The notes beneath the pieces were generated by a model. It was not told the origin of the DNA and searched no databases. It worked only from the letters and a program-made list of their open reading frames with translations. Shown piece by piece: positions 55,279 to 60,066 of a DNA stretch of 64,000 nt. The stretch spans positions 1 to 64,000 of the forward strand of contig CANIBP010000028.1 of NCBI GenBank assembly GCA_947466075.1, given 5' to 3'. The position numbers were made by a program, and so were the translations under genes. The stretch is from Verrucomicrobiaceae bacterium (lineage in GTDB: Bacteria > Verrucomicrobiota > Verrucomicrobiia > Verrucomicrobiales > Verrucomicrobiaceae). How positions within the stretch are numbered: the first letter of the stretch is position 1; the number at the start of each line of letters is the position of its first letter.

Positions 55279-56535
55279 ATGCGTTCCCGTTCCCTGATCA
55301 TGCTGTTGTTTTTGACGATCTCCGCCGCCCCGGCTGCGGAGACCAAAGCACCACGCGTGATCGACTTCAAAGCCGCACCGCATTCGTATCTCGACTGGAA
55401 GCCGAAGGACCGCTTCGCCGAGTTGCAGGAGAAAGCCCAGAAGGGCGAGGTGAAACTCGACACCACGAACGACAAGGCCTTCCTGACCAGCCTGCTGGAG
55501 GCGCTGAACATTCCTATCACCTCGCAGATCATGGTGTTCTCAGCGAGTTCGCTGCAAAGCGAGATCATCAATCCGCGCAATCCGCGTGCGCTGTACTTCA
55601 ACGAAGACACCTATCTCGGCTGGGTGCCGGGTGGCTTAGTGGAGATCATCGCCGCCGATCCTGAAATGGGGCCGATGTTTTATGTATTCGATCGTCTGCG
55701 TCCCGGCGGTCCGGTGCCGAATGTAACACGCTCCACGAAGTGCATGAACTGCCACGCAGGCAATGCGACACGGCGGCTGCCGGGATTGATCGCGGAGTCG
55801 CTGCTCGTTTCACGCGCAGGATCGAGCCTGGAAACGTTTCGCCGCGATGAGCAGGGCCATCAAATCCCGCTGGAGAATCGTTTTGGCGGCTGGCATCTGA
55901 CCGGCGAACACAACATCACCAACAACCGGGCGAACGTGATGGGCGTCCCAACGAACGGAAAAAACGTGATCACGCCGGTGCCGCCGGGGCAGAACTCAGA
56001 CCTGAGCCTGCACCTGCTCCCAACGAGCGACATTCTGCCGAATCTCGTCAACGAACATCAGATGGGCTTCGAGAACCGTCTGGTCTATGCGATCTACACC
56101 GTGCGCCAGCTCAAGAGCGACAACAAAAACATGCTGGGAGCCGCAGCGAAGGCGGAGATCGAGGAGCGGGCGCAGGAACTGGCGCGCTACATCGTGTTCG
56201 CGGATGAAGCGAAGTTTCCGAGCAAGGGCATGGTCGGCGATCCAGCCTACGTGAGGGATTTTCTGCGTGACCGGAAGCTAACGAAGACGGGTCTCTCACT
56301 GAAGGACTTGGACATGAAGACCCGCATGTTCAAGCACCGCTGCAGCTTCATGCTCTACACCGACACCTGGAAACACGCGCCCAAGGAGCTGAAGGAGCGC
56401 GTCTATTACCACATGGCCCTCTACATGCGCGAGCAGCCTGATGCGCAGCATGCGCACCTCGCGCCGAACGAACGTCTGGCGATCCGCAGCATCCTCAAAG
56501 AGACGATGACGGATCTGCCTGCATGGTGGCGGTGA
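55279..56535 (+). CDS. Secreted protein with one CXXCH haem-binding motif
   Basis: 418 residues with a signal peptide (1-20). It has a single c-type haem motif, CMNCHAG (about 154-160), followed by NATRRLPGLIAESLLVSR and FGGWHLTGEHNITNNRANVMG, which are conserved in a planctomycete/verrucomicrobial group of unknown role that I recognise only loosely. It probably is a periplasmic mono-haem protein. It converges on the nadA 3' remnant with three bases between the two stop codons. Confidence 0.8.
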   Translation: MRSRSLIMLLFLTISAAPAAETKAPRVIDFKAAPHSYLDWKPKDRFAELQEKAQKGEVKLDTTNDKAFLTSLLEALNIPITSQIMVFSASSLQSEIINPRNPRALYFNEDTYLGWVPGGLVEIIAADPEMGPMFYVFDRLRPGGPVPNVTRSTKCMNCHAGNATRRLPGLIAESLLVSRAGSSLETFRRDEQGHQIPLENRFGGWHLTGEHNITNNRANVMGVPTNGKNVITPVPPGQNSDLSLHLLPTSDILPNLVNEHQMGFENRLVYAIYTVRQLKSDNKNMLGAAAKAEIEERAQELARYIVFADEAKFPSKGMVGDPAYVRDFLRDRKLTKTGLSLKDLDMKTRMFKHRCSFMLYTDTWKHAPKELKERVYYHMALYMREQPDAQHAHLAPNERLAIRSILKETMTDLPAWWR

Positions 56536-56538
56536 TGA

Positions 56539-56613
56539 TCACCGGCTTAGTTCCAGCATGCGCAGGATCGGCTTCTCTGCACGCTTGCGCAGGTCTTCAG
56601 GCATCTCGACTTG
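56539..56613 (-). pseudogene. nadA: Displaced 3' end of nadA
   Basis: On the minus strand it reads QVEMPEDLRKRAEKPILRML then ELSR and TGA. This is the same C-terminal peptide as intact nadA (QVVMPEDL...MLELSR) but without the rest of the gene. The five codons after the shared core plus the stop codon all differ between the two copies, yet encode the same residues. It looks like the chromosome's original nadA end, cut off by the insert between the two copies. Confidence 0.85.
56555..56613. repeat. Direct repeat, left (nadA core; attachment-site candidate)
   Basis: It matches 59142-59200 at 58 of 59 positions, including 51 in a row. The one mismatch is T56606 against A59193. It lies inside the nadA 3' remnant and forms the left boundary of the 2.6-kb insert. 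Confidence 0.85.
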
Positions 56614-56617
56614 CATT

Positions 56618-56767
56618 TCAAAGCCAGTCCACAAGCACGGCCTCGACCACATAAAACTCATCTTCCGCCACGCCTGCCGCGACTTCCGTATCATCGATGT
56701 GCATCAGATGAAGGAAGTGACCGCGTGTAGAACCAAGCGTCCTTTTCAAGAGTATTCGGTGAACCAT
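56618..56767 (-). CDS. Possible small protein next to the left repeat
   Basis: A 49-residue frame with ATG 56767 preceded by GAGCGGGG. It starts MVHRILLKRTLGSTR and ends in an acidic, aliphatic tail (AAGVAEDEFYVVEAVLVDWL). It stops just before the nadA remnant. The composition is protein-like, but there is no family match, so it could be chance or the remnant of a larger gene. Confidence 0.3.
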   Translation of the reverse strand: MVHRILLKRTLGSTRGHFLHLMHIDDTEVAAGVAEDEFYVVEAVLVDWL

Positions 56768-56852
56768 CCCCGCTCGTCACGGTACGGGTCTTGGGCACTG
56801 TTCTGGATAGTGGTGCCAATTTTTGACAATCATGACTCCAGAACAATCCTGT

Positions 56853-58100
56853 TCAGGGACTGGTCTCCAAAACACATCGGAATCCTTTGGTATAGTGCCG
56901 TTCCGCAGGAGGCCGTTGTAGTCGGTATGACGAGAGCATGTGTCCCCCATCTTGATTATTTGATCCCCAACACCCACCACGCAGGACTCTTCCTGACGAC
57001 GCTTGATCGAATTTATCCTCGCACCATTCCCATACATTTCCACCCAGGTCATATATGCCTAATTTGTTAGCTTCAAATGACATAACCGGCGAGGTCTTGG
57101 CAAAGCCATCATCGAAACCGCTGATAATCGCAAATCGCTGTAAAATTGTCATTTTCAAGCATGTCTCATCTGCATAGTTGCCTATATTTTTCGGCGGCGG
57201 AAATCTGGTGCCCCATGGAAAAAGATTATTGATTTTGAGGTGTTTTTCCGAAGGAAGCTCGCCGGCATTCTCTTTTTCGCCAATTCCAACCGCGACGCTC
57301 CATTCATGGTCCGTCGGCAGCCTGTATTGACGGCCTTCTTTACGACTAAGCCAATCACAGAAAGCCTTTGCATCATCCCAAGAGACATTAACCACAGGGT
57401 GCTCTTCCTTTTTTGCCGCATCAGCCTCTCCATAATCAGCCGAATCCCATTCAGCAGCGATTCCGCTGGATTGGCTGGCATAACTTCTGTAGTCCTTCAC
57501 ACGTGTCTCATGAATGCACATCGACATTTTTGTTCCAGCCACAGGAACAAATTTCATTCCGAGACTATTTGTATATTGCGCGTCCACAGCCGACGGCGGA
57601 TTCAACAAATTCTCCTGTGCTTTTTTAGCCCCCGCCGCCTCATCCAACCTTCCAGCTTTGGTCAGGATCAAAGCAACAGATTCAAGTTGCTTGTAAAAGG
57701 CTTCTTTCATGGGCCGAATGATTTTGTCTCTATTCAAATCTAATCTGGCCAGAGCAGTTCGATAAGTAGTACGCATCTTCTTCAAGGCGTCAGTTGTTCC
57801 AGCTTCATCCTGATCAGGAACTTTCCGACCGGCTAGAACACGTTCTCTTTCCTGCTTGAGCGCAATAGCTTGTTCCAGTTTCCCTGACTTCTGCGCTGCT
57901 TCTTGCATGGGCAACAATGCAGCTAAGTATTTTTCATTTAAATTTGCGACTGCCAATTGATGAGGCCGCGTGGCTTCCAATTCCACTTTCTCCTGATATG
58001 AGGCCAGCAATGCCTTCAGGTCTGGCGCTTCTTGGGATAGGGCCGAGGAAACAACAATGCTTAGCAAGGCGGCGATTTTGAAGAGAGGCGATCCATTCAT
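56853..58100 (-). CDS. SUMF1/FGE-fold secreted protein without FGE active-site cysteines
   Basis: 415 residues with a signal peptide (1-22) and a coiled-coil region (about 30-165, Glu/Lys/Leu-rich) before a formylglycine-generating-enzyme-like domain (about 177-412). That domain has NSLGMKFVPVAGTKM, PVVNVSWDDAKAFCDWLS, YRLPTDHEWSVA, GNVWEWCED and GFRCV. The Cys pair that copper-dependent FGE needs near the end is missing in the stretch after GGCW (SYRLQRPPAERHY), so it probably is not a sulfatase activator; binding or another role is likelier. GC is lower than in flanking chromosomal genes. Confidence 0.85.
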   Translation of the reverse strand: MNGSPLFKIAALLSIVVSSALSQEAPDLKALLASYQEKVELEATRPHQLAVANLNEKYLAALLPMQEAAQKSGKLEQAIALKQERERVLAGRKVPDQDEAGTTDALKKMRTTYRTALARLDLNRDKIIRPMKEAFYKQLESVALILTKAGRLDEAAGAKKAQENLLNPPSAVDAQYTNSLGMKFVPVAGTKMSMCIHETRVKDYRSYASQSSGIAAEWDSADYGEADAAKKEEHPVVNVSWDDAKAFCDWLSRKEGRQYRLPTDHEWSVAVGIGEKENAGELPSEKHLKINNLFPWGTRFPPPKNIGNYADETCLKMTILQRFAIISGFDDGFAKTSPVMSFEANKLGIYDLGGNVWEWCEDKFDQASSGRVLRGGCWGSNNQDGGHMLSSYRLQRPPAERHYTKGFRCVLETSP

Positions 58101-58114
58101 GACATTCGGATAAT

Positions 58115-58708
58115 TTAATCTATGACTGGTTTTCCAGTGACCGTTGCAGGCAGTTTTGAGGCAACAGCCTCCTTGGTGTCGCTTTCCTCAGCTTTGAGTT
58201 TCCGGCCTTTGGCCGCGACTTCCTGGCGCTTGAGGCAGATTCTATGCATCCAATTGGGCGAAATTGGGTCCAGCTCGTAGTCAACTTCAATGAGGAGGCG
58301 AAGCTCGGCAAAATCCAATTGTGCCTTACCACCAATATCATTCCAGGCGGCTTTGAAGGCTGCCCTTTGCATGTTGGTCTTGATGCCGTCGCACCAAAAC
58401 GCCCACGTCTGGTCACTGATTCGGCCCGCCTCACGAAGAAAGATTTGCCCGTTGGTCAGGTCGAAGTAACGATAAAACTCGTCCTGTGCTCTGGCTTTTT
58501 CCCTTGGCGTCAATTCCTCCGAGAACGGAATGTCGTAAAATACCTTGGTTGGAAATCTGCTGGCGAGTTCACGGTATTCCTTCGCCATAGAGTCCTCGAA
58601 GGTGGTTTGCGCCTGTTTGCGCGTCTGCCATAGCTGGTAAGCGCCAATGCCGATGCCAACAATGGCAGCACAATGAGCTAAGATTTCGAAAAAGTGAAAA
58701 ATGATCAT
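58115..58708 (-). CDS. One-helix membrane protein of unknown function
   Basis: 197 residues from ATG 58708. One membrane helix near the start (about 5-25, ILAHCAAIVGIGIGAYQLW) is followed by a soluble helical domain (about 30-180; QTTFEDSMAKEYRELASRFP, YRYFDLTNGQIFLREAG, TWAFWCDGIK). Its shape resembles DUF4760-type bacterial proteins, but I do not claim that. It lies 14 bases ahead of the FGE-like gene and is probably co-transcribed with it. Confidence 0.7.
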   Translation of the reverse strand: MIIFHFFEILAHCAAIVGIGIGAYQLWQTRKQAQTTFEDSMAKEYRELASRFPTKVFYDIPFSEELTPREKARAQDEFYRYFDLTNGQIFLREAGRISDQTWAFWCDGIKTNMQRAAFKAAWNDIGGKAQLDFAELRLLIEVDYELDPISPNWMHRICLKRQEVAAKGRKLKAEESDTKEAVASKLPATVTGKPVID

Positions 58709-59124
58709 CTGATAGTTTGGGAGCTGATCGTGGTTATTCGGGGGCGGCAAACGAGACAGGGGGGGGGCTGCGCGCCCCTGTCTTTGAAGCTGCCTGACAC
58801 ACCCACCATCATCTCAACGGTGTTACTCCAAACACCACCTGATGATCCCCCACGCGGTAGATGGACCCGTGTAGCGAAAGGCAACATGGAAAATGGTTTT
58901 AACGGGGACGGCGAATTTCGACAAGGGAAATTTTTGAATTCAACGAGCCAACGGCGCGGAAGCTGGTGCGCTACAGGACGTAGGATGGGTGTGTCAACAG
59001 CCCACCCATCTCTCAACGCTCACACAATGGCCCAAGCACACGCCCAAACAGTCGGGTGGTGCTGCAGGAGCAAGTCTTAGGTGATAGCGGCCTACTTGGA
59101 GCAGCATACACAACCTACGATTGC
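58709..59124. other. Non-coding stretch at the right end of the insert
   Basis: About 416 bp with no convincing gene. It has a G-run palindrome (ACAGGGG...CCCCTGT, about 58757-58783) upstream of the one-helix gene, and an imperfect inverted pair GATGGGTGTG...CCCACCCATC (about 58983-59012). It probably holds the minus-strand promoter for the insert genes and could hold recombination or replication sites. Confidence 0.4.
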
Positions 59125-60066
59125 CTAGCGACTCAACTCAAGCATGCGCAGGATCGGCTTCTCTGCACGCTTGCGCAGGTCTTCAGGCATCACGACTTGA
59201 GGCGAGAGATCGCGCAGGCAGTCGTGCAGCTTTTGCAGCGTGTTGAGCTTCATGTATCGGCAGTCGGCGCAGGCGCAGTGACCGGTGGGGCCGGGAATGA
59301 ACTTCTTGCCCGGCACTTCGCGTTCAAGGCGATGCAGCATGCCGCTTTCGGTCACGATGATGAAGGCGCTGGCCGGGCTGTTGCGGCAATAACCGACCAT
59401 CTTCTCGGTGCTGCACACTTCATCGGCCAGCATGCGCACGGCATAGGTGCATTCGGGGTGGGCGACGACTTTGGCATCGGGATGCTCGTCCTTGATCTGC
59501 TGAATGCTGTCGCGGGTGAACTCGACGTGGACGTAACACGCGCCCTTCCACAGATCCATCTTGCGACCCGTGCGTTCCATGACCCATGAGCCGAGGTTCT
59601 GATCCGGCACAAACAGGATCGGGCGGTCCTTCGGAGCGGCTTCGACAATCTTGTCCGCATTGCCGCTGGTGCAGATGCAATCGCTCAGCGCCTTCACATG
59701 GCCACTGCAATTGATGTAGGCGATGACGTAGTAGTTTTTGGCCGCATTCGCCTTCAGGAAGGCCTCAAGCTGCGGTCCGGGGCAGCTTTGCTCCAGCGAG
59801 CAGCCAGCATTCGCGTCTGGCAGCACGACGATCTTGCTGGGATTCACGATCTTGGCCGTCTCCGCCATGAAATGCACGCCGCAGAACACAATCACGTCCG
59901 CTTCGGTCTCTTTGGCCTTGTAGGAGAGGCCGAGAGAATCACCGACAAAGTCCGCTATCTCCTGGATGGCCTTGTCCTGGTAATTGTGGGCCAGAATGAC
60001 GGCGTTGCGCTCCTGTTTCAGGCGTTTGATTTCTTCGATGAGGCTGGGGGCGGCAGTGGCGACCAT
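59125..60066 (-). CDS. nadA: Quinolinate synthase NadA
   Basis: Condenses iminoaspartate with dihydroxyacetone phosphate in NAD synthesis, using a [4Fe-4S] cluster. 313 residues with three pseudo-repeated domains, VIAYINCSGHVKALSDCICTS, VVAHPECTYAVRMLADEVC and GHCACADCRYMKLNTL; the cluster cysteines lie in these blocks. The last 20-odd codons coincide with the right-hand direct repeat, so the present 3' end may have been supplied by the adjacent insert. nadB and nadC are not in the window. Confidence 0.95.
   Translation of the reverse strand: MVATAAPSLIEEIKRLKQERNAVILAHNYQDKAIQEIADFVGDSLGLSYKAKETEADVIVFCGVHFMAETAKIVNPSKIVVLPDANAGCSLEQSCPGPQLEAFLKANAAKNYYVIAYINCSGHVKALSDCICTSGNADKIVEAAPKDRPILFVPDQNLGSWVMERTGRKMDLWKGACYVHVEFTRDSIQQIKDEHPDAKVVAHPECTYAVRMLADEVCSTEKMVGYCRNSPASAFIIVTESGMLHRLEREVPGKKFIPGPTGHCACADCRYMKLNTLQKLHDCLRDLSPQVVMPEDLRKRAEKPILRMLELSR
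59142..59200. repeat. Direct repeat, right (within intact nadA)
   Basis: Partner of 56555-56613 with 58 of 59 identical positions. It covers the codons for QVVMPEDL through LRML of nadA. Confidence 0.85.

Follow-up and report, generated by a model that had tools for sequence, protein, structure and literature searches.

Foreign DNA at the 3′ end of nadA in a Verrucomicrobiaceae genome, between a silently different gene end and an orphan one

The vitamin-synthesis gene nadA, which encodes quinolinate synthase, is present in intact form in the genome of a Verrucomicrobiaceae bacterium, but its last codons arrived with an insert, and its own former end lies stranded on the far side of that insert, beside the next gene. 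We analysed a window of 64,000 nucleotides, part of a 6.4-Mb draft genome in 120 contigs, and compared it with 47 congeneric genomes. With a probability of about 0.55, our reading is that general recombination, without a dedicated element, placed about 2.5 kb of foreign or rearranged DNA at the nadA 3′ end.

Two versions of the nadA end

The last 75 bp of nadA are present twice, as direct repeats on the minus strand with a start-to-start spacing of 2,586 bp. The right copy (59125–59199) closes the intact gene (59125..60066, minus strand; Pfam NadA, 1.7e-115) and consists of a 59-bp core followed by the foreign tail CTTGAGTTGAGTCGCTAG. The left copy (56539–56613) is an orphan gene end with the same core and the tail CTGGAACTAAGCCGGTGA; 5′ of its 75 bp there is no nadA sequence whatsoever. 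The cores agree at 58 of 59 positions, with a longest exact run of 51 nt, as the initial annotation had described apart from a spacing of 2,587 bp. The sole core mismatch is non-silent, GAG (Glu) on the left and GTG (Val) on the right, and all relatives shown have A in the middle of this codon.

The tails are a different matter. Their last 16 nt hold 8 differences, the left tail reading CTG GAA CTA AGC CGG TGA and the right tail CTT GAG TTG AGT CGC TAG, so that all five LELSR codons and the stop are changed, every one of them silently; this feature, too, had been recognized at the outset. The frame of the intact nadA stays open, the target gene being restored by the re-encoded LELSR-stop. That 8 of the 9 differences should fall in the final 16 of the 75 positions has a hypergeometric P of 6e-6, and since an in-frame ELSR-stop would come from a random stretch with a P of about 1e-6, the foreign tail is not a product of chance.

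Empty sites in relatives

In two congeners, G044, which is the sister species, and G034, the nadA end stands directly against a 418-aa gene with an identical 3-bp gap. In the analysed genome this gene (55279..56535, plus strand), convergent with nadA in the empty site, adjoins the orphan nadA end. G044 is a close relative, with 93% nucleotide identity in malQ and 93–95% in the 418-aa gene. Its last nadA codons, CTG GAA CTG AGC CGG TGA, have 1 difference from the left copy and 7 from the right; those of G034, CTG GAG CTT AGC CGG TGA, have 2 and 7, respectively, and the bases downstream of the left tail are likewise of the type found in these two genomes. The arrangement is the empty site that had been predicted, with the 418-aa gene directly convergent with nadA and with the left-hand codons. 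Because the empty sites carry left-type codons, the left copy is the native nadA end, still at its original position, whereas the end of the right copy is foreign, having come with the insert.

These comparisons also bear on the possibility that the nadA end was duplicated in tandem long ago and that the copies were later separated, decayed and diverged in place. This would give two directly oriented copies, but such copies should not show 8 differences in 16 nt next to 1 in 59 nt, in the sister species the 418-aa gene directly adjoins a left-type end, and the insert is not made of nadA-region DNA. Given that both the empty sites and the clustered differences contradict it, we consider this explanation excluded, with hardly any probability left to it, and the earlier argument that a plain duplication is inadequate holds.

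Many congeners have unrelated genes between nadA and the neighbouring gene, for example an HSP70-like gene with its partner or FGE-like genes; the site is thus tolerant of ordinary gene turnover. G010 and G021 carry low-identity FGE-sulfatase-like genes, convergent and immediately after nadA, and in G003 nadA occurs twice, on the short contigs C186 and C172.

Contents of the insert

The insert has two plausible genes, flanked on either side by the truncated remnant of another gene. Its GC content is 46–53%, against about 59% in the flanks, as the initial annotation had observed for the cargo. Starting at nadA, the order is a spacer, a gene 3′ remnant, a 211-aa gene, an FGE-like gene and, on the opposite strand, the 3′ end of a DUF1501 gene. 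The spacer past the foreign nadA stop (58865..59124, about 260 bp) contains a hairpin-forming repeat that also occurs elsewhere in the same genome, with partial matches on contigs C64 and C15; the spacer's overall folding is not unusual. The repeat itself (GGATGGGTGTG...ACAGCCC.CCC.TCTC, 58950–59020) resembles one located just after nadA in G037, in the opposite orientation, and the two look like members of a dispersed repeat family.

Next to the spacer, the segment at 58790..58864 (minus strand) aligns with C61:1328-1400 and with contig C13, and is what remains of the 3′ end of a gene; at the second locus, on C61, this gene extends further upstream. The 211-aa protein (58115..58750, minus strand) has one N-terminal membrane helix and a weak resemblance to DUF4760, and the 415-aa protein (56853..58100, minus strand) has an apparent signal peptide and an FGE-sulfatase-like domain (Pfam FGE-sulfatase, 1.5e-33). 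The far margin is a decayed 3′ remnant of a DUF1501 gene (56618..56725, plus strand), too short for a Pfam match, whose frame GLDHIKLIFRHACRDFRIIDVH aligns with a 22-residue stretch of a gene in the same genome. Of the cargo listed in the initial annotation, the FGE-like gene and the gene for the one-helix protein are present, whereas the possible 49-residue peptide exists as a minus-strand open reading frame but is the antisense of the decayed DUF1501 remnant and was rejected as a gene. A search for a defence role of the cargo gave no PADLOC match.

An assembly chimera in which the 51-bp identical block bridged two strains or loci is conceivable in a draft of so many contigs, and 51 bp is close to the word sizes that assemblers often use. 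The junction of the DUF1501 remnant with the core falls outside that block, however, and needs real reads; the differing tail cannot come from a shared block; and the path from nadA through core, insert and core to the neighbour is self-consistent and equals the integrated form. We regard a chimeric assembly as very improbable.

A second copy of the module near rsmB

A related module lies elsewhere in the genome (G000:C61 1328-4500), placed between rsmB and the gene that comes after rsmB in relatives. It comprises a second copy of the 211-aa gene (C61:1438-2073), then a different FGE-like gene and then a DUF1501 3′ remnant. The two 211-aa copies share 83% amino acid identity with a dN of 0.07 and a dS of 0.47, which suggests purifying selection between them and hence a protein that probably works; the FGE-like proteins of the two modules are just 26% identical. 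The only close relative of the 211-aa protein is this copy in the same genome, and the protein is absent from all other genomes searched in the genus or family. More distant relatives occur on the Natrinema plasmid pJ7-1 (43% identical; L235 3893-4372), between genes of a BREX-5 defence system, and on a Teredinibacter plasmid. Contig C61 begins in a GGAGCCGTG-type tandem repeat, and contig C20 ends in the same repeat.

No duplicated rsmB end was found at the C61 module. At both module copies, the DUF1501 remnant, on the FGE side of the module, abuts the end of a host gene, and its cut points in the two copies lie no more than about ten bases apart. This shared cut point hints at a defined unit boundary and is the best such clue.

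Ancestry of the nadA end and identity of the core

The intact nadA is not uniform in its affinities. The first 672 nt place it as sister to G044 with 100% support, whereas the last 270 nt do not recover this pair. Derived sites common to nadA and G044 number 40 in the first 672 nt versus 1 in the last 270 nt (Fisher P 2e-5), although in the AU test the last 270 nt of nadA alone do not reject the sister relation with G044 (p 0.16). The pattern fits an import of the nadA end from outside the close clade, with the core homogenized then or afterwards, but for the last 270 nt it could also be G044, rather than the analysed genome, that is recombinant.

Pairwise comparison of congeneric nadA ends gave 1,035 pairs, of which 658 have at least 4 differences in the last 18 positions; the minimum number of core differences among these is 2. 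As no pair of the 658 matches in the core, core differences would normally be expected in a complete foreign nadA end, too. The identical core was thus either duplicated from the resident gene or had its identity selected or created by a crossover; an identical core joined to a very different tail would fit a duplicated core or a crossover requiring identity. A search of the genus for the right-hand tail, with up to 3 mismatches allowed, yielded no donor, and none carrying both this tail and the spacer was found.

Search for a dedicated element

The locus has several features of a site-specific element: direct repeats at both borders, a restored target gene, a precise empty site in relatives and a lower GC content than its surroundings. 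It may accordingly be the remnant of an integrative element, or of a non-autonomous one served in trans, that attached at the nadA 3′ end and restored the gene with its own end. The 14 tyrosine-recombinase matches in the genome could act in trans, and one apparent boundary is common to both module copies. Against this, the open reading frames and Pfam matches of the insert include no recombinase gene, which bears out the initial description of the cargo, and contig C28 has no match to tyrosine recombinase PF00589. The recurrence expected at other genomes' nadA ends was not seen, an orphan nadA end being present in 0 of the 47 congeners; no viral contig has such a nadA end, and the insert DNA has no match in phage and plasmid collections. 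The rsmB-side module copy lacks a duplicated end, and the differences between the nadA copies are confined to one side, whereas an attP copy should diverge along its whole length. One congener has an integrase-family gene downstream of nadA, but this gene is syntenic at 86–91% within its subclade, looks like a housekeeping XerC/D gene and was discarded as a candidate. A literature search found no papers on nadA as an integration site, and to our knowledge there is no case of nadA serving as an attachment site. We consider an element remnant unlikely, though it deserves to be taken seriously. From the initial proposal of an element carrying its own nadA end, the insertion, the native left end and the foreign right end stand; the dedicated element is not supported, for want of a recombinase and of recurrence.

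A narrower version of this explanation is a small non-autonomous unit, made up of the membrane and FGE-like proteins with a fixed DUF1501-remnant border, that settles at host gene 3′ ends, is able to carry a silently recoded end of its target gene and is mobilized in trans. We hold this to be improbable. The small non-autonomous island envisaged earlier agrees with the insertion and the empty sites but not with the unduplicated rsmB end at the other module copy, the truncated gene remnants or the lack of recurrence. A new kind of island is possible but not favoured, and nothing points to a working mobile element.

Discussion

General recombination is preferred over an integrase-driven element because the import of a foreign nadA end with homogenization of the core fits the nadA data. 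The gene remnants at the insert margins, the lack of a recombinase, the single occurrence and the tolerant site also speak for it. The right joint shows nadA-end homology, and the left one starts abruptly within nadA, so that homology may have been confined to one joint. We infer the route of transfer and the kind of recombination as follows. Incoming DNA would have brought a divergent nadA end, and homology at that end would have joined it to the resident gene, which would then finish with the silent codons and stop of the donor. The other end of the incoming DNA would have been joined to the resident gene 75 bp short of its end, with no visible nadA homology beyond these 75 bp; alternatively, a circle may have integrated via one crossover inside the 51-bp identical block. 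Either way, the native nadA end would have been stranded as an orphan beside the 418-aa gene, and the membrane and FGE-like proteins, amid truncated gene remnants, would be passengers. Several points weigh against general recombination: the DUF1501 remnant, which with its shared cut point abuts host gene ends at both module copies and hints at a unit; the failure to find a donor with the right-hand tail and spacer; the AU result for the last 270 nt, where G044 could be the recombinant instead; and the fact that no single simple event gives both the upstream import signal and an identical left core without later gene conversion.

Comparable arrangements are known. When phage 21 or e14 integrates at icd, an element-borne 3′ end replaces that of the gene, and the original end is moved to the other side. 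Both carry an integrase and recur at icd, with differences spread along the duplicated stretch. In E. coli, icd is their shared attachment site (PMC12803456). The geometry of gene-end replacement is thus already known, and the nadA locus shares the replaced 3′ end and the displaced native end. Unlike phage 21 and e14, however, the nadA insert lacks a recombinase, is a single case and has its differences all at the end. Mobile open reading frames of fungal mitochondria, such as that at Allomyces atp6, bring in a replacement 3′ end and carry a homing endonuclease. As there, nadA is a hybrid whose 3′ end is foreign, and the native end remains downstream, but no nuclease gene was found in the insert. 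In naturally transformed bacteria, incoming DNA can be anchored by homology on one side and joined without homology on the other. The term homology-facilitated illegitimate recombination is in use for such events (for example, PMC6382021 and PMC8504540). The proposed nadA event would resemble them in having homology on one side and a non-homologous joint on the other, but it differs in having left a short duplication rather than a deletion alone.

The nadA locus provides an unusually clear record of foreign DNA settling harmlessly behind a core metabolic gene: the new end that nadA gains is complete and differs silently from the old one, which persists as a scar. Should a dedicated element be responsible after all, that element would be a passenger without a recombinase and would target the metabolic gene nadA.
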